Positions 1,787 through 10,369 of a stretch of DNA of 10,369 nt are shown one piece after another (within the stretch, counting starts at the first letter, position 1; each line of letters begins with the position of its first letter). The stretch covers positions 1 through 10,369 of the forward strand of contig JAQVDF010000030.1 in assembly GCA_028698405.1 (NCBI GenBank), given 5' to 3'. Position numbers and translations under genes: made by a program. The DNA is from Phenylobacterium sp. (GTDB lineage Bacteria; Pseudomonadota; Alphaproteobacteria; Caulobacterales; Caulobacteraceae). The notes beneath the pieces are model-generated. The model searched no databases and had not been told where the DNA came from. It saw only the letters and a list, made by a program, of their open reading frames with translations.

Positions 1787-2422
1787 CTACTCGGTCCAGA
1801 GGTCGTGGATGTCGCCCTTGCGGTTCAGCACCCGCACCGCGCGCTTGACGACCTGCAGCAGGCGCGCCCGGCGGGCCTCCTCGTCATAGGTCATCGAGCC
1901 CTTGGCCAAGCCTTCCAGCAGGAAGCGGCCGAGGTCGCGGCTGGTCTGGAACCTGGGGTCCTCGCCGGCCTGGGCGAGCGCCAGGAAGCGGTTGCCTACC
2001 TGGTTGTGGTCGAAGGCGCTCTGCGCGCCGGCCAGCCGCTCGCGCAGCATAGGGTCGGTGCGCGCCGCGGCCTCCAGCTCGGCGAAGGCCACGAACGGCA
2101 CGGTGTGCAGCAGGGTCCAGTAGGCGTCGATGGCGTGCTCGGCCGCGTCGATCCCGGGGATCGGCGGCTTGGCGGCGGCCTCTTCGAACAGACGGGCCCG
2201 CTCCACCTCGATGTAGGCGATGGCCGCCTCGACCAGCTCTTCCCGGCTGGGGAAGTGGTAGAGCATGGCGCCGCGGGTGAGGTTGGCCGCCTCGGCGATC
2301 ATCGCGTTGGCGGCGGCGTGGTAGCCCACCTCGGCGAACAGGCGCATGGCCGCATCGAGGATGCGCGCACGCGTGCGGCGAGACTTCGGGGTCTCTTTGG
2401 CGGGATATGTTCTGGTGTCCAT
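1787..2422 (-). CDS. TetR/AcrR-family transcriptional regulator
   Basis: A 211-residue dimeric DNA-binding regulator. The N-terminal TetR domain covers about residues 15-62: SRRTRARILDAAMRLFAEVG, then the HTH ANAMIAEAANLTRGAMLYHF (38-57) followed by PSREELVEAA. The C-terminal ligand-binding half (about 75-205) is helical and not assignable to a known ligand. The start at the ATG 2420-2422 (MDTRTYPAKETPK) gives a normal TetR N-terminus. The frame is open a long way upstream, but that sequence is the antisense of the neighbouring gene. No clear Shine-Dalgarno is visible. It is divergent from the TetR-glycosyltransferase fusion gene across a 210-base region, the classic position for a regulator controlling itself and its divergent neighbour. 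What it senses and whether it controls that gene is inference. Confidence 0.92.
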   Translation of the reverse strand: MDTRTYPAKETPKSRRTRARILDAAMRLFAEVGYHAAANAMIAEAANLTRGAMLYHFPSREELVEAAIAYIEVERARLFEEAAAKPPIPGIDAAEHAIDAYWTLLHTVPFVAFAELEAAARTDPMLRERLAGAQSAFDHNQVGNRFLALAQAGEDPRFQTSRDLGRFLLEGLAKGSMTYDEEARRARLLQVVKRAVRVLNRKGDIHDLWTE

Positions 2423-2632
2423 GGGCGTCGGGGAGGCGCGTGACGCGGCTGACCTAGGCGCGCCTGCTGCTTCGCGCCAGAGGCGAAACGCGCTTTTGCC
2501 GCTTCCGGCGAAAATTTTGATCAAAGCTGCGACATTCGCGCCCAGATCGGGGTCAATTGAGTGGTCGGCGTTATCCGAAGCGTCGCGCAGCCCCGTTGAC
2601 AGTCGCTGCGAACTCATGACAGTGCCGCTGCC
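2423..2632. promoter_or_regulatory. Divergent intergenic region between the two TetR-domain genes
   Basis: This 210-base gene-free stretch must carry the promoters of both divergent genes. Its centre is notably AT-rich for this genome (about 2509-2526) and contains a perfect 10-bp palindrome TTTGATCAAA at 2516-2525. Just to the left is an imperfect inverted repeat TTTTGCCG-cttc-CGGCgAAAA (about 2494-2514, one extra base). Either could be an operator for the TetR protein; no assignment is possible from sequence alone. No convincing 11-bp-period Pho box is present here. Confidence 0.5.
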
Positions 2633-2635
2633 ATG
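2596..2635. repeat. TGACAGT direct repeats plus inverted repeat over the start codon of the fusion gene
   Basis: TGACAGT occurs at 2597-2603 and again at 2617-2623, each followed by CGCTGC (2604-2609 and 2626-2631). The second copy is also the left arm of an imperfect inverted repeat CATGACAG-tgccg-CTGCCATG (2615-2635, one mismatch), whose right arm contains the ATG start at 2633. TTGACA at 2596-2601 could also be a -35 element. Binding here would block the start of the plus-strand gene. The likeliest reader is a TetR-type protein. The 20-base spacing of the CTGTCA-like units does not fit a PhoB box (11 or 22). Confidence 0.4.
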
Positions 2636-4027
2636 AACGACGCCCCTTCGGGCCCCTCGCTGCGCGACAGGCAGAAGGCGGCCACCCGTGACGAGATCCT
2701 GCGCGCCGTCGGCCGCAGGCTCGAGACCACCTCGCTCGAGGACCTGTCGTTCGCCGAGATCGCGGCCGAGGCGAAGGTCGGCGAGCGGACCGTCTACCGC
2801 CATTTCCCTACCAAGGAGGCGCTGCTGGGCGCCTTCTGGGCCTGGATCCAGACCCAGGCGGTGGCCCGCGACAAGCCGCCGGCCCAGCCCATCCGCGAGG
2901 CGGCGCCGCCGCATGCCGACACCCAGAAGCCGATGCGCATCCTTTTGGCCACCGACGCCTGGGAGCCGCAGGTCAACGGCGTGGTCCGCACCCTGACCCG
3001 GGTGGTCCAGGAGCTGCGCGCCATGGGCCATCAGGTGGAGGTGGTCAGCCCCGACCAGTTCAAGACCTTCCCGCTGCCGACCTATCCCGAGATCAAGGTG
3101 GCGATCGGCGCCTACGAGCCGGTGCAGGAGCGGTTCAAGGCCTTCGAGCCGGAAGCCATCCACATCGCCACCGAGGTGCCGATCGGCCTGGCGGCGCGGC
3201 GCATCTGCGTCGAGTGGAAGCTGCCGTTCACCACCAGCTACCACACCCGCTTCCCGGAATACGTCTCGGCCCGGCTGCCGGTGCCGCTGGCGGCGGGCTA
3301 CGCCTACATGAAGTGGTTCCACAAGCCGTCCGGGCGGCTGATGGTGGCCACGCCCACCATGCGCGACGAGCTCTCGCGGCACGGCTTCCGAAACATCTCG
3401 TCCTGGTCGCGGGGAGTGGACACCGAGCTGTTCCACCCGCGCCGGCCGGACGAGCCGGACCTGTTCGAAGGCCTGCCGCGGCCGATCTTCCTCTATGTCG
3501 GCCGCGTCGCCGTGGAGAAGAACATCGACGCCTTCCTCGGCCTCGACCTGCCGGGCAGCAAGGTCGTCGTCGGCGACGGCCCGCAAAAGGAGGAGCTGGC
3601 CGCCAAGCATCCGGGCGTGGTGTTCACCGGCTTCAAGAGCGGGGCGGAACTGGCCGCCCACTACGCCTGCGCCGACGTGTTCGTCTTCCCCTCGCTGACC
3701 GACACCTTCGGTCTGGTGATCCTGGAGGCGATGGCCACGGGCACGCCGGTCGCGGCCTATCCGGCCCCGGGGCCGATCGACATCATTCCCGGCTCGGGCG
3801 CGGGCGTGCTCGCGAAGTCCGCCACCGAGGGACTGCGCGAGGCCTGCCTCGAATGCCTGACCCTCGACCGGGGCAAGGTGCGCGCCTTCGCCGAGACCTT
3901 CTCCTGGCGTAACTGCGCCGAGGACTTCCTGCGCAACCTGCAGCCCTATCCGGAGCCGGAAAAGACCCGCTTCTGGCGCAGGCTGCGGCGGCTGGCGCGC
4001 GTGCGGCGGCGGCCCAAGGCGGCCTGA
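2633..4027 (+). CDS. TetR-type HTH domain fused to a GT4 glycosyltransferase (possible glycolipid synthase)
   Basis: 464 residues in one open frame. Residues 12-72 form a TetR_N DNA-binding domain (RQKAATRDEILRAVGRRL; HTH SFAEIAAEAKVGERTVYRHF at 39-58; PTKEALLGAFWAW). There is no TetR ligand domain; a Pro/Ala-rich linker (76-100) leads at residue 101 into a complete GT-B, GT4-type glycosyltransferase. Its motifs are MRILLATDAWEPQVNGVVRT (101-120), TTSYHTRFPEY (200-210), FLYVGRVAVEKN (286-297), VVVGDGPQKEE (311-321) and a D-x7-E nucleotide-sugar site (D357-E365 in FPSLTDTFGLVILEAMATG). The tail RFWRRLRRLARVRRRPK (446-462) is strongly basic, as in peripheral-membrane lipid glycosyltransferases. 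Third positions are G/C throughout, including the linker, so the whole frame looks coding. An internal ATG at 2933, with weak AGAAG before it, could give a 364-residue stand-alone enzyme. Donor and acceptor are unknown. The resemblance is to SqdX/PimB/MgtA-like enzymes. Confidence 0.85.
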   Translation: MNDAPSGPSLRDRQKAATRDEILRAVGRRLETTSLEDLSFAEIAAEAKVGERTVYRHFPTKEALLGAFWAWIQTQAVARDKPPAQPIREAAPPHADTQKPMRILLATDAWEPQVNGVVRTLTRVVQELRAMGHQVEVVSPDQFKTFPLPTYPEIKVAIGAYEPVQERFKAFEPEAIHIATEVPIGLAARRICVEWKLPFTTSYHTRFPEYVSARLPVPLAAGYAYMKWFHKPSGRLMVATPTMRDELSRHGFRNISSWSRGVDTELFHPRRPDEPDLFEGLPRPIFLYVGRVAVEKNIDAFLGLDLPGSKVVVGDGPQKEELAAKHPGVVFTGFKSGAELAAHYACADVFVFPSLTDTFGLVILEAMATGTPVAAYPAPGPIDIIPGSGAGVLAKSATEGLREACLECLTLDRGKVRAFAETFSWRNCAEDFLRNLQPYPEPEKTRFWRRLRRLARVRRRPKAA

Positions 4028-4063: not shown

Positions 4064-4106
4064 GCGTCATCCGACTGTCGCGGAACTGTCGCACCGCGAT
4101 GCTAGG
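4064..4106 (+). promoter_or_regulatory. Pho box and promoter of pstS
   Basis: Two identical 7-mers CTGTCGC (4075-4081 and 4086-4092) are separated by 4 bases (GGAA), giving the 11-bp period of PhoB half-sites. A third, looser unit GCGTCAT lies exactly 11 bases upstream (4064-4070). The known consensus is CTGTCAT-N4-CTGTCAT. A plausible -10 element (TGCTAG, 4101-4106) follows after 8 bases, the spacing expected when PhoB replaces the -35 contact. The site is 46 bases from the pstS start codon. Confidence 0.8.
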
Positions 4107-4137
4107 CCGCAGGCGCCTCAATCGGAGCCCTGACAAC

Positions 4138-5229
4138 ATGCGACTGATCTCCACCCTCGCCGCGACCAGCGCGGCGCTCGCCCTGGCGGGCTGCGGCCAA
4201 GGCGCCGAGACCAATGCGGCGGCCGGTGCGGCCGGCGGCGGCCAGACCGGCGGCAGCGCGGACCAGGTCTGGGTCGCCGGCTCCTCGACCGTCTTCCCGT
4301 TCGCGACCCGCGTCTCGGAACAGGTCTCCCGCACCACCGGCGGCACGGCCGCCAAGGTGGAGAGCCTTGGCACCGGCGGCGGCATCAAGCTGTTCTGCGG
4401 CGGCCTGGGCGCCAGCTACCCCGACGTGGCCACCGCCTCGCGGCCGATGAAGAAGTCCGAGTGGGAGGCCTGCCAGAAGGCCGGCGTGACCGACATCGTC
4501 GAGCTGAAGATCGGCTACGACGGCATCGTCGTCGCCAACGCCCGCACCGGCGCCGACTACGACCTGAAGGCCGAGCACCTCTACAGGGCGCTGGCGGCCG
4601 ACATGCCCAGCGGCCAGGGCTTTGCCGCCAACACCGCCAAGACCTGGCGAGACGTCGACCCGGCCCTGCCGGCCGACCGCATCCAGGTCTACGGCCCGCC
4701 GCCGACCTCCGGCACCCGCGACGCCTTCGTCGAACTCGGCATGGAGGCCGGCGCCCAGGCCGTGCCGGCGCTCAAGGCGCTGAAAAGCTCGGACGAGACC
4801 GCCTTCAAGCAACGCGCCCACACGCTGCGCAGCGATGGCGCGTGGATCGATTCCGGGGAGAACGACAACGCCATCATCCAGACCCTGGAGAAGACCCCAG
4901 GCTCGGTCGGCGTGTTCGGCTTCTCCTTCCTGGATAACAATCTGGACAAGGTGAAGCCCGCAGCGATCGGCGGGGTGAAGCCCACGATGGCGGCGATCTC
5001 CGACGGCTCCTATCCGCTGTCGCGGTCGCTGTTCATCTACGTGAAGAAGGCCAACGTCGAGACCAAGCCGTCGCTGAAGCCCTACGTCAGCGCCTTCGTA
5101 TCCGACGCCGCGGCCGGCCGCGGCGGCTACCTGCTCGAACGCGGGCTGATCCCGCTGCCGGACGCCGAACGCAAGGCACAGCAGGCCGCCGTCGCCGGCC
5201 TGACGCCGATGGCCGCGCCGGAGAAGTAG
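4138..5229 (+). CDS. pstS: PstS-like phosphate-binding lipoprotein
   Basis: The high-affinity phosphate-binding component of a Pst-type ABC transporter. It is 363 residues from the ATG at 4138, chosen because it begins a lipoprotein signal peptide (MRLISTLAATSAALALAGC, lipobox LAGC with Cys19) and has GGAG at 4124-4127. An upstream in-frame ATG at 4099 would lie in the promoter. After the Cys comes a Gly/Ala linker (27-40). Then come the PstS motifs AGSSTVFPF (47-55), SLGTGGGIKLF (76-86), TASRPM (99-104), GYDGIVVA (126-133) and PPPTSGTRDAFVELG (187-201), which carry phosphate-coordinating Ser/Asp/Thr/Arg positions in this family. Lipid anchoring is less usual in Gram-negative PstS, which is normally free in the periplasm. 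No pstC, pstA, pstB or phoU follows, so it is an orphan here. A Pho box precedes it and a strong hairpin follows. Confidence 0.92.
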   Translation: MRLISTLAATSAALALAGCGQGAETNAAAGAAGGGQTGGSADQVWVAGSSTVFPFATRVSEQVSRTTGGTAAKVESLGTGGGIKLFCGGLGASYPDVATASRPMKKSEWEACQKAGVTDIVELKIGYDGIVVANARTGADYDLKAEHLYRALAADMPSGQGFAANTAKTWRDVDPALPADRIQVYGPPPTSGTRDAFVELGMEAGAQAVPALKALKSSDETAFKQRAHTLRSDGAWIDSGENDNAIIQTLEKTPGSVGVFGFSFLDNNLDKVKPAAIGGVKPTMAAISDGSYPLSRSLFIYVKKANVETKPSLKPYVSAFVSDAAAGRGGYLLERGLIPLPDAERKAQQAAVAGLTPMAAPEK

Positions 5230-5236
5230 CGGGCCG

Positions 5237-5268
5237 CGTCCCGTACGGCCGCTCGGCCGTACGGGACG
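5237..5268. terminator. Perfect 15-bp palindrome hairpin after pstS
   Basis: The arm CGTCCCGTACGGCCG is followed by CT and then its exact reverse complement. It would fold as a 14-bp GC-rich stem with a 4-base loop after opening the terminal pair. It begins 8 bases after the pstS stop. No U-run follows on either strand, so it is either a U-less terminator, an mRNA 3' end stabiliser, or an extragenic palindrome. It lies between convergent genes and could serve both. Confidence 0.6.
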
Positions 5269-5290
5269 ACATGCCTCCACACCAAGCCGA

Positions 5291-5323
5291 GGCCGCCTTC
5301 GCTCCCGGTGGGCGAGGGCGGCC
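5291..5323 (+). terminator. Second hairpin between the convergent pstS and phosphoesterase genes
   Basis: GGCCGCCTTCGCTC pairs with GGGCGAGGGCGGCC across a 5-base loop, a 14-pair stem when two G-U wobbles are allowed in plus-strand RNA (these become mismatches in minus-strand RNA). It lies 32 bases before the stop of the minus-strand phosphoesterase gene. It has no T-run. It is a likely second stop or transcript-end structure for pstS. Confidence 0.4.
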
Positions 5324-5355
5324 AATCGCGTCTGACGTGAGAAGGTTCGGCGGCG

Positions 5356-6141
5356 CTAGGCGGCCTGGGCCACCACCACCGGGGCCGGGCGCGCGGCGAT
5401 CTCGTTCCAGCGGACGATCGAGAACCGGCCCTGGTGGTCCTCGACCAGCGCCGTGCAGCTCTCCACCCAGTCGCCGTCGTTCATGTAGACCACGCCGCCG
5501 ATGGACCTGATTTCGGCCCTGTGGATGTGGCCGCAGATCACTCCGTCGACGCCTCGCCGGCGGGCCTCGTCGGCCACCGCAGCCTCGAAGTTCTCGATGA
5601 ACTGCAGGGCGTTCTTCACCCGCGTCTTGACGTAGGCCGACAGGCTCCAGTCGCACAGGCCCAGCCGGCGCCGCACGCGGTTGAACATGGTGTTGGCCGT
5701 CAGCAGCGCCCGGTAGCCGTAGTCGCCGAGCAGGGCGAGCCACCTGGCGTGCTGGACGACGCCGTCGAACTCGTCCCCGTGGGTGACCAGATAGCGCCGG
5801 CCGTCGGCGGCCTCGTGGATCGCGTCGCGCGCCACCACCACGCCGCCGAAGTGAACGCCACAGAAGTCACGCACCCGTTCATCGTGGTTGCCGGGCACGT
5901 AGATGATCTCGACGCCCTTGCGCGCCAGCCGCAGGATCTTCTGGACCACGTCGTTGTGCGCCTGCGGCCAGTGCCACCCGCTCCGCAGCTTCCAGCCATC
6001 GACGATGTCGCCGACCAGGTACAGCCGCTCGCACTCGAGACTCCGGATGAAGTCCAGCAGCCGTTCGGCCTGGCAGCCCCGCGTCCCGAGATGGATGTCG
6101 GAGATGAAGACGCTGCGGCAGGAGAGTTCGGCGTCGTCCAT
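5356..6141 (-). CDS. plcP: COG2908-type metallophosphoesterase, PlcP-like phospholipase C candidate
   Basis: A soluble calcineurin-like phosphoesterase of 261 residues with no signal peptide or membrane helix. The two-metal site is complete: SDIHLG (D15, H17), GDIVDGW (D45), GNHDERV (84-90: N85, H86), THGDEFD (H121) and GHIH (H205, H207), closing with the signature NDGDWVESC (221-229). Automatic annotation would call it UDP-2,3-diacylglucosamine diphosphatase (LpxH-like). The NDGDWVESCTAL ending and the surroundings fit PlcP better, the cytoplasmic phospholipase C of phosphate-starved alphaproteobacteria that releases diacylglycerol from phospholipids. The start at 6141 is fixed by GGAGG at 6148-6152, 6 bases upstream. 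A longer open frame to 6294 would run over the promoter. The Pho-box-like repeat just upstream and the PstS, porin and PhnCDE neighbours support the phosphate role. LpxH-type activity is not excluded by sequence. Confidence 0.85.
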   Translation of the reverse strand: MDDAELSCRSVFISDIHLGTRGCQAERLLDFIRSLECERLYLVGDIVDGWKLRSGWHWPQAHNDVVQKILRLARKGVEIIYVPGNHDERVRDFCGVHFGGVVVARDAIHEAADGRRYLVTHGDEFDGVVQHARWLALLGDYGYRALLTANTMFNRVRRRLGLCDWSLSAYVKTRVKNALQFIENFEAAVADEARRRGVDGVICGHIHRAEIRSIGGVVYMNDGDWVESCTALVEDHQGRFSIVRWNEIAARPAPVVVAQAA

Positions 6142-6147
6142 GGCCAG

Positions 6148-6152
6148 CCTCC
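6148..6152 (-). promoter_or_regulatory. Shine-Dalgarno fixing the phosphoesterase start
   Basis: GGAGG on the minus strand (CCTCC on plus), 6 bases before the ATG at 6139-6141. It selects this start over upstream in-frame ATGs that would extend the protein by up to 51 residues with no family support. Confidence 0.8.
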
Positions 6153-6187
6153 AGGTGATTTTCCCATGCTGGCGATAAGCCGCCTCG

Positions 6188-6205
6188 GTGACAGGGCGGT
6201 GACGC
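6188..6205 (-). promoter_or_regulatory. Pho box candidate of the phosphoesterase gene
   Basis: On the minus strand, GCGTCAC (6205-6199) and CTGTCAC (6194-6188) are separated by CGCC, an 11-bp period. The units match those before pstS (GCGTCAT, CTGTCGC). A possible -10 (CTTATC or TTATCG) follows 8-9 bases later, the same spacing as in the pstS promoter. The site ends 46 bases before the start codon, again as at pstS. Confidence 0.7.
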
Positions 6206-6280
6206 ACGAGACGGGCGCGCACACAACTGTCGTGAAACGGCTCTACACGGCTCGCGCCACAGGCGAGTGCGAGTCGAGGC

Positions 6281-6505
6281 ATGATGGTGATCAACGTCAG
6301 GGCCGTGCCGGACGGCTGGATCGTGGATGGCGGCGACCCGGCGCCGCTGGTGTTCAGCCGCGGCGGGGAGGCCGAGCGGCGCGCCCACCAGCTGGGCGCA
6401 CAGCGGGCGCGGGTCGGCGCCGATGCCGAGGTGCGGATTCACGACCGCACCGGCGCCCTGGTGGGCCGCAGCCTCTACCTCGCTTCGGAACCGATACCGG
6501 CGTAG
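6281..6505 (+). CDS. Small DUF2188-like protein of unknown function
   Basis: 74 residues starting MMVINVRAVPDGWIVDGG and ending YLASEPIPA. The pattern (short beta strand, DGW turn, second strand with VFSRGGEAE, a helix rich in Ala and Arg, then AEVRIHDRTGALVG) resembles DUF2188 proteins, small soluble proteins without known activity. It has no signal peptide, helix anchor or catalytic motif. The start is uncertain. GAGG at 6276-6279 is too close to the first ATG (6281) and better spaced for the ATG at 6284 or a GTG at 6287; the difference is at most two residues. Its G/C-rich third positions match the neighbours. It is divergent from the phosphoesterase across 139 bases and could share its promoter region; only a single Pho half-site (CTGTCGT, 6227-6233) points its way. 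Confidence 0.7.
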   Translation: MMVINVRAVPDGWIVDGGDPAPLVFSRGGEAERRAHQLGAQRARVGADAEVRIHDRTGALVGRSLYLASEPIPA

Positions 6506-6525
6506 CGCAAGCCCGGCTCAGCGGT

Positions 6526-6566
6526 TGGGGCGAGGCAAGTCTTCGCGCCACAGGCCTCTTGCCCCA
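6526..6566. terminator. Hairpin between the convergent small gene and porin gene
   Basis: TGGGGCGAGGC (6526-6536) pairs with GCCTC (6554-6558) and, after a TT bulge, GCCCCA (6561-6566), an 11-bp stem with a 17-base loop. It begins 20 bases after the stop of the plus-strand small gene and lies 37 bases past the porin stop on the minus strand. There is no T-run. It is a possible bidirectional terminator; the rest of the 98-base gap shows nothing else. Confidence 0.45.
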
Positions 6567-6603
6567 GGGGCTTCGACCTGATCGGGAAGGGCTCCGGCGC
6601 GCG

Positions 6604-7743
6604 TCAGAATTCGAACTGGAAGCGGACCTGGGCGACTTGGGCGTCGACGTCGGCGCCGAAGGCGACGTTGTCGTTCTCGGAGTCGGTATAGTTGAACATC
6701 ACCCGGGTGTTGGAGGTCAGGTGCCAGTTGGCGCCCAGCGTCCAGGCGGAGTACTCGCCGCCCCCCGGCGCGTCGGAGAGGTCGGCGGCGTCGTAGCGCA
6801 GCGCCAGCTCGATGGCCCCCAGGCCGCCCTTGGTGACCGGCTCGGCGACCTTCACCCTGTCGAAGCGGCCGGCCTCCGGACGGTAGCGGCGCGACTGGCC
6901 GGTGACGAACCAGCTGCCGTAGGCGTACCAGGTCGACAGGTCCGCATCGCGCGTCGTCCCGTCCACGGCCACGTGGGCCCACTCGCCCTGCAGGGAGAAG
7001 GGGCCGTTCACATAGGCGCCTTCGAGGCCCACGGTGGTGTCAGAATCACCGAAGGCGGCGGTGCTGACGAAGCGCGGCCCGAAGTTGGTGTTCGGACGGG
7101 CGCGGTAGTTCAGCCGGCTGGGGGCGTCCCGGTCGCGCTGGCGAACCCAGGCGCCGAGGTGAGCCCTCTGGCGGTCCTCGTTCAGCGGCGCGAACGTGCC
7201 GCGCAGGCTGACGCCGACTTCCTGCGGCGCGGTGTCGATGTCGTTCAGGTTTTCGCCGGTGAGCGCGGCCGAGACGGTCCAGGTGTCGCCGCCGGTCTTG
7301 GCCTCCAGCGAGACCAGGCGGCCGAGGCCCAGCACGTCGTTGAAGGGTCCGCGCTCCATGAAGGTGGTTACCGCGTCGGATGTCAGGTTTTCGAGCGATA
7401 CGGTCTTGATGTTGCCGACCGTCAGCTTGGTGGAGTCGGTGAGGTCGACGGCCAGGTAGACGTCCTGCCAGACCACGTCCTCCAGCGCGAAGTCGAGCTC
7501 GGCCTTGTAGGAGACGCGGTCGGTCAGGTCGCCCTGGGCCCAGACACGGCCGAGGCGCAGGCGCACGTCCTGGTCCTCGAAGTCGGCGCCGGTCTCCCGG
7601 TCGGCGTCGACCTCCACGTAGTCGATGAAGCCCCGGGCGCCGAACTCGATGGTCGGCGGCGCGTCCTGCGCCAGCGCCGGGCCGGCTGCAGCGCCGGTGA
7701 CGGCAATCCCCGCAACAGCGGCCGCGCAAAACCTGGATCGCAT
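6604..7743 (-). CDS. OprP/OprO-family outer-membrane porin
   Basis: An outer-membrane beta-barrel of the phosphate-selective porin O/P family, 379 residues. The signal peptide is MRSRFCAAAVAGIAVTGAAA followed by GPALA, with cleavage after Ala25. The mature protein alternates charged and hydrophobic residues as barrel strands do and ends in Phe (QFEF). Family hallmarks are YKAELDFA (79-86), the GNIKTVSLENLTS stretch (110-122), ERGPFNDVLGLGR (130-142), YGSWFVTGQSRRYRPE (275-290) and GAIELALRYDAADLSD (309-324). It is shorter than OprP of Pseudomonas and has no N-terminal coiled coil. The start at 7743 has GGAGG at 7752-7756, 8 bases away; the ATG eight codons upstream would include this site. 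It lies 115 bases downstream of phnE on the same strand, so read-through from phnCDE is possible besides its own promoter. The exact substrate (phosphate, polyphosphate, phosphonate) is inferred only. Confidence 0.9.
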   Translation of the reverse strand: MRSRFCAAAVAGIAVTGAAAGPALAQDAPPTIEFGARGFIDYVEVDADRETGADFEDQDVRLRLGRVWAQGDLTDRVSYKAELDFALEDVVWQDVYLAVDLTDSTKLTVGNIKTVSLENLTSDAVTTFMERGPFNDVLGLGRLVSLEAKTGGDTWTVSAALTGENLNDIDTAPQEVGVSLRGTFAPLNEDRQRAHLGAWVRQRDRDAPSRLNYRARPNTNFGPRFVSTAAFGDSDTTVGLEGAYVNGPFSLQGEWAHVAVDGTTRDADLSTWYAYGSWFVTGQSRRYRPEAGRFDRVKVAEPVTKGGLGAIELALRYDAADLSDAPGGGEYSAWTLGANWHLTSNTRVMFNYTDSENDNVAFGADVDAQVAQVRFQFEF

Positions 7744-7751
7744 CGAATTAC

Positions 7752-7756
7752 CCTCC
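7752..7756 (-). promoter_or_regulatory. Shine-Dalgarno fixing the porin start
   Basis: GGAGG on the minus strand, 8 bases before the ATG at 7741-7743. It places the start at the signal peptide MRSRF rather than at the ATG eight codons upstream. Confidence 0.75.
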
Positions 7757-7802
7757 GAAGACGCCACAGCGCGTCCGCCGCAGGGGGTTAACGATGAAGT
7801 GT

Positions 7803-7828
7803 GAAGGTTCGCCTTCGAACGTTTGAAG
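7803..7828. repeat. TTCG-loop hairpin overlapping a 16-bp palindrome between phnE and the porin gene
   Basis: GAAGG-TTCG-CCTTC (7803-7816) is a compact hairpin, and CTTCGAACGTTTGAAG (7813-7828) is a near-perfect palindrome with one mismatched pair. The two overlap, so they are mutually exclusive structures. They lie 30-55 bases past the phnE stop, in the porin leader or promoter. It could be a weak terminator, an operator or an mRNA processing structure; no T-run follows. Confidence 0.35.
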
Positions 7829-7833
7829 CTTTT

Positions 7834-7862
7834 GCGTCAGTCCTGCGACATCTTGGCCTCAG
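7834..7862 (-). promoter_or_regulatory. Weaker Pho box candidate before the porin, overlapping the phnE stop
   Basis: On the minus strand three 7-mers stand at an exact 11-bp period: CTGAGGC (7862-7856), ATGTCGC (7851-7845) and CTGACGC (7840-7834). The last two each differ from the pstS unit CTGTCGC at one base, and the first at two. The phnE stop codon (7861-7859) lies inside the first unit. No good -10 follows at the expected place, so this is less certain than the other two sites. Confidence 0.45.
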
Positions 7863-8668
7863 ATCAGCCGCGAACGAATCGCCTGCGAGAGCATGTCGAT
7901 CAGCGTCACCGCGACGACGATGACCAGGGCGATGGCGGCGACCTTGCTGTAGGCGAAGCTGTTCAGGGAATCGAACAGCACCTGGCCGATGCCGCCGGCC
8001 CCAATCAAGCCGAGCACGGTGGCGGCGCGGCTGTTCGATTCGAAGCGGTAGAGGCCGTAGGAGGTCCACAGCGGGGCGACCTGCGGGATCACCCCCCAGA
8101 CGATCTCCTGCAGCTTGGTGGCGCCGGTGGCGCGCACGCCCTCCACCGGCCCGCGGTCGATGGCCTCCACGGCCTCCGAAAACAGCTTGCCGAGCACCCC
8201 GCCGGTGTTCAGCGCCAGCGCCATGACGCCGGCGAAGGGGCCGAGGCCCACGGCGGCGACGAAGAAGGTGCCGATGACCAGGTCCGGCACCGAGCGCAGG
8301 ATGTCCATCAGCCGGCGCACCACCAGCTGCACGGCGGGCGGCGAGACGTTGCGGGCGCCGGCGAGCCCCAGCGGTATGGCCAGGATCACCGCCAGGAAGG
8401 TGCCCCACAGCGCCATCTGCACGGTCAGCCACATCTGGCGCACGTAGAGCGACAGGTCGGTCCAGTCCGGCCGCACGAACTCGCGCCCGTACTGGCGCAT
8501 GTTCTCGGTGTTCTGGAACAGCCGCGGCAGCTTGTCGATCTCGGCCGGGCCGAAGCTGACCAGCAGCAGGACGGCGAGGCCGCCCCACAGCAGGATGTCG
8601 AACACCTTCTGGCCCAGCGGACGCGCGGGCGGCTTCAGGCTCGCGGCTTGGTCGATCGCTTCGGTCAC
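7859..8668 (-). CDS. phnE: Phosphonate ABC transporter permease PhnE
   Basis: The inner-membrane permease of the PhnCDE phosphonate importer, 269 residues with a GTG start. Membrane segments lie near residues 22-40, 82-105, 128-156, 215-232 and 243-262. The cytoplasmic EAA loop that contacts the ATPase is EGVRATGATKLQEIVWGVIP (176-195). The SVPDLVIGTFFVAAVGLGPF (126-145) and LGLIGAGGIGQVLFDSLNSF (219-238) segments are typical of PhnE. The start lies 4 bases after the phnD stop without a strong Shine-Dalgarno of its own, so translational coupling is likely. Only one permease gene is present, as in PhnCDE systems that use a homodimer. The gene ends in a possible Pho box for the downstream porin. 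Confidence 0.93.
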   Translation of the reverse strand: MTEAIDQAASLKPPARPLGQKVFDILLWGGLAVLLLVSFGPAEIDKLPRLFQNTENMRQYGREFVRPDWTDLSLYVRQMWLTVQMALWGTFLAVILAIPLGLAGARNVSPPAVQLVVRRLMDILRSVPDLVIGTFFVAAVGLGPFAGVMALALNTGGVLGKLFSEAVEAIDRGPVEGVRATGATKLQEIVWGVIPQVAPLWTSYGLYRFESNSRAATVLGLIGAGGIGQVLFDSLNSFAYSKVAAIALVIVVAVTLIDMLSQAIRSRLI

Positions 8669-8672
8669 GGGG

Positions 8673-9698
8673 TCACTGGGCGACGATGGGCTGGCCGGTC
8701 CTGGCCTCTAGGGCGGCGCGTTCGGCCTGGATCGCTTCCAGCGCCTTCTGGGCCTCGGTGATGCGGGCGGCGTCGCCGATGTTCTTCGCGCTGAGCAGCG
8801 CCTCGGTGGCCTCCATCTCGCGCACCGGGATCAGGTGGCTGTCGTCTGCCGGCAGGAAGCCGCCGATGGACAGCTGCGAGAGCAGCTTGCGCTGCCGCTC
8901 GGCCTCCTCGCCCTCGCCCTTGCCGTAGGTGAGGAAGAACTGGCGGATCTTCTCCTTGGTGGCCGGGTCCAGGTCCTTGCGCCAGATGATCGGGTCCTCG
9001 GGCAGCTTGGGCGATTCCCAGATCACCCGGATCTGGTCGGGCACCGGCGAACCGCGCTCGCGCTGCAGGCGGATGGCGGTGGAATTGTTGGTGGCAACGT
9101 CCAGCAGGCCGCGGGCGACCGCGAACAGGTTGGCCTGGTGGTTGGCCGTCTTCACCGTCTTGAAGCAGGCCTGCGGGTCCACCCCGTTGGGCGCGAACAG
9201 ATAGGTCATCGGCGCCAGCGTGCCCGAGGTCGACTTGGCGTCGCCGATGCCGAAGTTGAGCGTGCGGTCGCACTTCAGCACATCGGCCAGGGTGGTCTTG
9301 CTGTTGGCCGGCACGATCAGCACCGACTTGTAGCCGTCCTCGCCCGAGGGATCGAAGGTGCGGGCGAACACCTCGCCGCCCGAGCGGCGCACCGCTTCCA
9401 GGCCCGACTGGTTGGAGAACCAGCCCGCATCGATCTGCTTGAACCGCAGCGCCTCGATCAGGGCCGTGTAGTTGGTGGCGTAGAACGGCTTCACCCGGAT
9501 GCCGATGGACTTCTCCATGTCGGCCAGGATCGGCTTCCAGAAGGTCTCCAGGCTGGACGAGTTCTCGGTCGCCAGGATCGAGAAGTTGATGACCTCCGGC
9601 GGCCCCTCGGCGGCCTTTCCGGTCTCTTCCCCGTTCCCGCAGGCGGCGAGGCTGAGGGCGGCGAGGCTGGCGCCCAGCATCAGGCGGCGGCTGATCAT
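8673..9698 (-). CDS. phnD: Phosphonate-binding lipoprotein PhnD
   Basis: The periplasmic substrate-binding component of the phosphonate importer, 341 residues. The start at 9698 has AAGGAG at 9706-9711 (7 bases away) and overlaps the phnC stop as ATGA. The signal peptide [20 protein letters not shown] has a lipobox LAAC (Cys20), so the protein is predicted to be lipid-anchored. E. coli PhnD is remembered as a soluble periplasmic protein. The body closely follows the E. coli PhnD pattern: [11 protein letters not shown] (76-86), [13 protein letters not shown] (91-103), [14 protein letters not shown] (150-163), [20 protein letters not shown] (184-203, His187) and [15 protein letters not shown] (229-243, Asp235). 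This favours a 2-aminoethylphosphonate-type ligand over phosphite or hypophosphite, but affinity cannot be read from sequence. The extreme C-terminus is a charged, Ala-rich helix (about 306-335). Confidence 0.95.
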
Positions 9699-10369
9699 TT
9701 GGGCGCTCCTTCCCAGAAGACGTCCTCGAACTCGGGTCCGTAGATGTCGATAAGCCGGGAACGGTCCAGCGACTCGGGCGGACCGTCGTAGACGATCTTG
9801 CCGGCCTTCAGGGCGATCACCCGCCGGCAGTATTTCAGCGCATAGTCCACCTGGTGGAGGGTGACGACGACCGTCAGTCCGTCCTCGGCGTTCAGTTCGC
9901 TGAGGGTGTCCATCACTCGGCGGGCGGACACCGGGTCGAGCGAGGCCACCGGCTCGTCGGCCAGGATGATCTTGGCCCGCTGCACCAACGCGCGGGCGAT
10001 GGCCGCCCGCTGCTGCTGGCCGCCGGACAGGGTGCCGGCCCGCTGGCCGGCGTATTCGGCGATGCCGACCCGGGCGAGCGCCTGCATCGCCGCCTGGCGA
10101 GTTTCCTTCGGCCACAGCCCGAGGGTCCCGCGCCACGTCGGGATCCGGCCCAGTGAGCCGAGCGCCACGTTGGCGAACAGCGGCAGGCGGCCGACCAGGT
10201 TGAACTGCTGGAAGATGAAGCCGATGCGCTTGCGGGCCTCACGCACCTTGTCGGACAGCTTGCCGTCGGCCTGCACCGGACCGCCGAAGGCGTCAATCCG
10301 ACCCGCCCCGGGGTCGATCGTCTGCAGGCCGCTGATCGAGCGAAGCAGCGTCGACTTGCCCGAACCGGA
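9695..10369 (-). CDS. phnC: Phosphonate ABC transporter ATP-binding protein PhnC (N-terminus beyond the window)
   Basis: The ATPase of the phosphonate importer; 224 C-terminal residues are visible and the frame is open to the window edge. The first visible residues are the Walker A loop ([15 protein letters not shown]), so only about 35-40 residues are missing by comparison with the family. Further motifs (visible numbering) are the Q-loop FIFQQFNLV (51-59), ABC signature LSGGQQQR (114-121), Walker B IILADEP (134-140), D-loop SLDP (143-146) and the H-loop in [12 protein letters not shown] (167-178). The LHQVD form and the ending IYGPEFED are characteristic of PhnC. An in-frame GTG at 10276 is not the start, because it lies downstream of Walker A. 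The stop overlaps the phnD start, and the order phnC-phnD-phnE is the standard one. Its promoter lies outside the window. Confidence 0.95.
9706..9711 (-). promoter_or_regulatory. Shine-Dalgarno of phnD
   Basis: AAGGAG on the minus strand, 7 bases before the phnD ATG and inside the end of phnC. It rejects the much longer open frame that runs on upstream in the phnC shadow. Confidence 0.75.

Follow-up and report, generated by a model that had tools for sequence, protein, structure and literature searches.

A TetR DNA-binding domain fused in frame to a lipid-type glycosyltransferase across Phenylobacterium, a candidate autogenous repressor-enzyme

Results

The window analysed here, a stretch of 10,369 nucleotides from a Phenylobacterium sp., carries on its forward strand a gene (2633..4027) whose open frame runs without a stop through 464 amino acids and joins a TetR DNA-binding domain to a GT4 glycosyltransferase. 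The DNA-binding domain occupies residues 10-78 (2660..2866, forward strand), as delimited by Pfam, predicted helices and dN/dS. It scored 37.8 bits with the Pfam TetR_N model against a cut-off of 24, with the best stretch at residues 35-67, and the AlphaFold2 model of the fusion, made with a 50-row alignment and reaching a mean pLDDT of 77.7, places four helices at residues 10-32, 40-47, 51-57 and 61-78. A flexible linker of residues 79-100 (2867..2932, forward strand) follows, in a region of low model confidence (pLDDT <50 over residues 76-96). The remainder, residues 101-464 (2933..4024, forward strand), was assigned to the enzyme from its Pfam domains and from comparison with unfused relatives, whose enzyme has its start codon at the position of Met101 of the fusion. 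Both Glyco_transf_4 (80 bits, residues 114-265) and Glyco_trans_1_4 (78.1 bits, residues 284-409) scored above their cut-offs, and from residue 102 onward the strands and helices of the model are those of a GT-B enzyme; fold and domains together place this part in GT4. All 50 Foldseek matches listed were enzymes of glycosyltransferase type, including GlgM, MshA, BshA, PimA and PimB'. R291, K296, D357 and E365 were invariant across 50 alignment rows of fused and unfused proteins, a set that we take to fit the GT4 catalytic motif of the E/D-x7-E type. A basic C-terminal helix (residues 443-458; 3959..4006, forward strand) appears in the AlphaFold2 model and is also present in unfused relatives, and the tail motif KxRFWRxLRR is conserved in the same 50-row alignment. 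The helix probably contacts the membrane, and the enzyme is probably a membrane-lipid enzyme.

The N-terminal helix-turn-helix (HTH), with its TetR_N score and its predicted helices, belongs to the TetR family. The C-terminal ligand-binding and dimerisation domain of that family is absent according to both Pfam and AlphaFold2, which show GT4 from residue 101 on, and because that domain is replaced by the enzyme, the fusion uses a TetR DNA-binding domain without being a TetR regulator. The original prediction, made from the letters of the window, had thus correctly described both a TetR HTH and a GT4 enzyme in one frame and the loss of the TetR ligand domain.

On the reverse strand at 1787..2422 lies a full-length TetR regulator with an HTH of another type (Pfam TetR_N, synteny), and in many Caulobacteraceae loci an ordinary TetR gene of this kind is retained in divergent orientation to the phosphoesterase-glycosyltransferase operon. 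As a source of the fused HTH this neighbour was rejected, its own HTH being visibly different. Downstream of the fusion gene, positions 4099-10369 hold a phosphate-related cluster with a gene for a PstS-like phosphate-binding protein (4099..5229, forward strand; Pfam PBP_like_2, TIGR02136 below cut-off), a Porin_O_P porin gene and PhnE-, PhnD- and PhnC-like genes. In many loci some of these have relatives directly downstream of the glycosyltransferase gene, in varied order. An LpxH/PlcP-like metallophosphoesterase is encoded at 5356..6294 on the reverse strand (Pfam Metallophos), and LpxH models scored far below their cut-off on it; the labels "PlcP-like" and "Agt-like" as used here rest on fold family, operon context and published descriptions.

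The metallophosphoesterase gene was found upstream of the glycosyltransferase gene and on the same strand in 77 fused and 34 unfused loci, which makes it the likely ancestral operon partner of the enzyme. The pairing holds in the relatives and not in the window, where the phosphoesterase gene is downstream of the glycosyltransferase gene, inverted relative to it and apart from it; in some other fused loci it was likewise not seen upstream within the locus DNA examined. In the unfused relatives the enzyme ATG overlaps the stop of the LpxH/PlcP-like gene (gap -1) in 30 of 34 loci, whereas 33-95 bp (median 49) separate that stop from the fused ATG in the 77 fused loci where the phosphoesterase gene is the upstream neighbour. 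From this difference, about 50 bp of promoter-like DNA and about 100 codons (about 350 bp in all) now stand at the junction, made up of a -35-like block, the inverted repeat GRCAGNNNNNCTGYC, which runs up to the start codon, and the codons of the TetR domain.

To ask how widely the fusion occurs is to ask first how widely the enzyme does. The glycosyltransferase gene was present in 96 of 101 Phenylobacterium genomes, the window's own included (match at E<=1e-30), and an in-frame TetR domain was visible in 94 of these 96, a count that takes in eight genomes with a longer linker, whose frames were read individually; the matches in the two others, G064 and G060, start only mid-enzyme. Records without a MAG mark carry the fusion as well (L049, L050, L059, L068, L077, L080 and L113). 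Across the Caulobacteraceae, where the enzyme was matched in 27 of the 28 genomes examined more closely, one further genus, g15, was fused in all three of its genomes, and 24 genomes of 19 further genera had the enzyme with no TetR domain preceding it. At class level the enzyme was found in 157 of 385 genomes, and among the matches listed only that of the window itself begins before residue 49. Plasmid records matched the query in 42 cases, none of which reached 80% query coverage. A single change between the two states accounts for a tree built from 66 enzyme domains, 29 of them fused and 37 unfused (support 89/90), and one change sufficed in 93% of 200 bootstrap trees. We therefore regard it as virtually certain from these comparisons that the fusion is real and conserved. 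The recurrence in Caulobacteraceae that the original prediction had proposed to look for was found, and its suggestion of a recent deletion scar is rejected because almost every species of the genus has the fusion and the enzyme tree gives it a single origin. One genome, G098, has two fused copies (on contigs C131 and C23), each with the exact start-site repeat described below, which may reflect duplication or mixed strains.

In front of the fused ATG lies a conserved inverted repeat, which, like the altered operon junction, the original prediction had not noticed. Since the 115 fused loci include some genomes twice and contain 87 distinct start regions, dereplicated sets of 66 upstream regions and 68 proteins were used for base and residue counts. 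A -35-like TTGACA lies at 2596..2601 on the forward strand (positions -37 to -32 from the ATG), with T-37 in 56, T-36 in 60, G-35 in 52, A-34 in 53, C-33 in 53 and A-32 in 35 of the 66 regions. It is followed by a candidate operator, the inverted repeat (T)GACAGTGCCGCTGCC(A) at 2617..2633, whose core GRCAGNNNNNCTGYC spans positions -15 to -1 and adjoins the start codon. G-15, C-13, A-12, T-4, G-3 and C-1 are kept in 66 of 66 regions; the window's own repeat is imperfect, its -14/-2 pair being A-C. The spacing of TTGAC and the missing Shine-Dalgarno (SD) sequence, an SD-like 4-mer occurring at the fusion start in three of the 68 genes, would be consistent with a transcript that has no leader or almost none.

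The core motif stands at the start in 105 of the 115 fused loci (78 of the 87 distinct ones), and the nine distinct loci that deviate, all three of g15 among them, do so at one to three positions. Ten more copies lie within 150 bp upstream of the start in fused loci (seven in distinct loci), and elsewhere in the 661,299 bases of these loci there were four. The motif was absent from 47 unfused loci (249,980 bases), one of which, L110, is a fragment beginning mid-enzyme. Genome-wide, the exact 17-mer TGACAGTNNNNCTGTCA was found in 46 of 101 Phenylobacterium genomes, against none of 101 for a reversed-pattern control, and its 52 distinct sites in the genus include 43 at the fusion gene, in 42 genomes; in other Caulobacteraceae, g15 included, both 17-mer and control scored in one of 80 genomes. 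With one mismatch allowed, the 17-mer was at the fusion gene in 18 of 20 Phenylobacterium genomes (exceptions G015 and G023), ten of the 20 held 18 further distinct sites, and six of ten genomes of other genera held ten sites. Because the reversed control also scores at this tolerance, in four of the 20 and five of the ten genomes, one-mismatch matches beyond the fusion gene are near background as evidence for a wider regulon. The window's genome has a second one-mismatch copy in L276, on another contig of the same MAG (G000:C158), in a stretch that is less G+C-rich than the window by eye and is possibly a contaminant.

Of the nine exact sites away from the fusion gene, eight are flanked on one side by a lysine-2,3-aminomutase-like gene and on the other by one that encodes "Scaffold" and peptidoglycan-binding domains (one example of each gene was compared with Pfam) and that we take to be L,D-transpeptidase-like. 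This is the only repeated second place of the exact 17-mer, and it occurs in G006, G014, G020, G036, G041, G057, G060 and G079 (L216-L221, L223 and L224). The 17-mer there is possibly a second target, and its recurrence in eight of them shows that further targets can be added. In 16 loci of relatives of the L,D-transpeptidase-like gene from 30 chosen genomes, the 17-mer was found in none within one mismatch.

Free TetR relatives of the fused HTH were collected by searching 249 family genomes with one of them, L275 (E<=1e-12; no more than 12 candidates evaluated per genome; start codons of the free genes chosen by script), and 20 full-length relatives with their loci, L275 itself among them, were compared. 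The core motif was present three times in the 71,340 bases surrounding them, each time at a TetR start, once in L281 and twice in L285. These two are the closest of the 20 to the window's HTH by BLAST E-value, L285 being first (52% over 71 residues) and L281 second (48% over 79 residues); the third, L280, which is L275 again (50% over 68 residues), bears a different repeat. The recognition segments of L285 and L281 are VSERTVYRHFPTK and VGERTVYRYFPTK, compared with VGERTVYRHFPTK in the window. Eight other free relatives, with VTEVTVYRHFPSR or VTQVTLYRHFPSR in this segment (several being near-copies), bear an inverted repeat of approximately TGATGTAA-N7-TTACATCA adjoining the ATG. Recognition helix and repeat thus seem to change together, on a small number of independent genes, and this co-variation is the best available support for the fused type of HTH binding the core repeat. 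In contrast to the tree of enzyme domains, that of the HTHs needs two changes, does not group the fused HTHs together (a single change in 0% of 200 bootstrap trees), and has only one of its 29 inner branches well supported; with branches so poorly supported, it gives neither a descent from L281 or L285, nor a single origin of the fused HTH, nor a donor.

Discussion

Enzymes with a built-in DNA-binding domain are a kind already known from PutA, described as a trifunctional protein that is the autogenous repressor of its own regulon and has an N-terminal DNA-binding domain on a membrane-associating enzyme (PMC5293562). The fusion is like PutA in that an N-terminal DNA-binding domain is fused to a metabolic enzyme, and differs in its parts, a TetR-type HTH and a glycosyltransferase instead of a ribbon-helix-helix (RHH) domain and proline dehydrogenase, and in that its DNA binding and switching are putative. 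The enzyme half resembles Agt, the GT4-type glycolipid glycosyltransferase of Agrobacterium and SAR11 that is often encoded near plcP; plcP-agt operons serve lipid replacement under phosphate shortage (PMC4796936, PMC3972451), and activity on diacylglycerol with UDP-Glc or UDP-GlcA and induction by phosphate starvation are features of the Agt/PlcP pair. The likeness extends to the lipid-glycosyltransferase type and to the operon partner in the relatives, an LpxH-like phosphoesterase; compared by description, the relevant passages on Agt mention no DNA-binding domain (PMC4796936, PMC3972451). Caulobacteraceae have lipid glycosyltransferases of GT-4, the ceramide glycosyltransferases Sgt1 and Sgt2 of Caulobacter crescentus, which are set in a context of phosphate starvation and for which the passages describing them mention no TetR domain (PMC6445935). 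With autoregulated TetR repressors the fusion shares the TetR_N domain and, like the free L281 and L285, a repeat of inverted type adjoining its start codon, but it has an enzyme where the ligand-binding and dimerisation domain would be.

We consider it reasonably probable that the fusion gene encodes an autogenous repressor-enzyme, half TetR and half lipid glycosyltransferase. Pfam and AlphaFold2 put the DNA-binding domain and the enzyme on one chain, and it is likely, with somewhat greater assurance than the whole reading, that the protein binds its own start site; it is from this binding that we infer self-repression, and the enzyme would probably regulate its own production. An ancestor of Phenylobacterium and one related genus would have acquired the 5' half of an autoregulated tetR gene, that is, its promoter, the operator adjoining its start codon and its DNA-binding domain, and this half would have been placed at the stop/start overlap of the PlcP-like phosphoesterase and Agt-like glycosyltransferase genes, in frame with the enzyme. 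The fusion protein would then bind the start-site repeat as a dimer and repress its own transcription. For this, dimerisation via the enzyme or cooperative binding on DNA has to be assumed, and a lone HTH deprived of the TetR dimer domain should bind a palindrome weakly, which counts against the repressor-enzyme. So do the imperfect repeat of the window, the nine distinct loci that deviate from the core motif, the poorly supported HTH tree, the raised Pho-box-like score at the start, and the sites elsewhere, both those found with one mismatch and the exact one before another gene in eight genomes. Engagement of the membrane and the lipid substrate by the enzyme part (perhaps diacylglycerol, during phosphate-poor lipid remodelling) may in turn compete with DNA binding, so that expression would rise when membrane work is needed, as in PutA. 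We put forward such a PutA-like switch between DNA and membrane only tentatively. It would make the protein a one-component repressor sensing membrane lipid, and it is conceivable, if rather doubtful, that the protein is drawn by its substrate to the membrane and leaves the operator, and that it goes back to DNA and switches off its own gene when no substrate is left. The earlier proposal of a bifunctional DNA-binding enzyme has indirect support in the operator-like repeat, the strong constraint on the HTH and the genus-wide occurrence, the DNA binding itself being putative.

The window is one entire contig of a MAG that is 73% complete and split into 473 contigs, a setting in which an assembly or binning artefact, or a fusion peculiar to one strain, might be suspected; the same architecture in 94 of the 96 Phenylobacterium genomes that have the gene, as well as in records without a MAG mark, rules this out for practical purposes. 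The HTH might also be a relic passenger, with the 364-residue enzyme alone being of importance and perhaps made from Met101. Met101 is indeed kept in 66 of the 68 non-redundant proteins, and the linker is variable, with a dN/dS of 0.254 over residues 77-100. However, dN/dS in the HTH is 0.051 over residues 35-67, lower than in the enzyme (0.088), and 0.103 over residues 10-76 (values from 112 close pairs of the 68 proteins, which share species and are not independent), and E51, R52, T53, Y55 and R56 are invariant in all 68. An SD-like 4-mer precedes Met101 in 11 of 68 genes, compared with 29 of 40 at the enzyme start of unfused relatives. A relic is highly improbable on these grounds; the same SD count and the loss of Met101 in two of the 68 proteins likewise disfavour two products made from starts at 2633 and 2933, as had been suggested.

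The repeat may instead be bound by another regulator, either PhoB or a free TetR sharing this type of HTH, leaving the fused HTH to do something else, such as scaffolding the enzyme or tethering it to DNA. One repeat arm together with the ATG reads CTGTCAT, a Pho half-site, and this arm raises the Pho-box-like score at the start, which reached at least 10 of 14 in 22 of 66 start regions against two of 66 shuffled ones; in addition, at least one Phenylobacterium genome (G023, in L281) has a free TetR with the fused type of HTH. A Pho box is an 11-bp direct repeat, however, whereas the repeat here is inverted, and no clear Pho box was found at the fusion start, a score of at least 11 of 14 being reached in only three of 66 regions. 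PhoB would be expected to act in all genera, yet the motif is missing from the 47 unfused loci, and among the matches listed (E<=1e-12, no more than 12 candidates evaluated per genome) free relatives of this TetR group were in only six Phenylobacterium genomes, which is a lower bound. We consider binding by another regulator unlikely. It is more unlikely still that the inverted repeat governs translation independently of the HTH, by folding into an RNA hairpin where a transcript with almost no leader begins. The arms could pair just 5' of the AUG, and the scarcity of SD-like 4-mers at the fusion start (3/68) would fit, but the mid-stem pair -14/-2 is a standard or G-T pair in only 43 of 66 regions, the three invariant pairs never switch to another pair, some loci have extra copies upstream of the start, and eight genomes have a copy upstream of another gene.

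If such a repressor sensing membrane lipid is real, it would be a TetR-based counterpart of PutA in which the catalytic domain serves as the ligand sensor. We found no description of a TetR-glycosyltransferase fusion in the open literature searched, and as far as we have seen, it is new for half a TetR to be joined to a lipid-type glycosyltransferase together with its likely operator. The promoter, operator and DNA-binding half of a regulator were apparently joined to a metabolic enzyme and have been retained across a genus, and the unfused operons of related genera represent natural "before" states. The fusion raises the questions of how the DNA-binding domain of a TetR protein can function once the dimer and ligand domain is gone, and whether membrane composition can be sensed by a lipid enzyme and reported directly to DNA. 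Finally, the free TetR relatives with a repeat of their own, L283, L286, L289, L290, L291, L292 and L295 with VTEVTVYRHFPSR and L288 with VTQVTLYRHFPSR, offer material for decoding TetR specificity.
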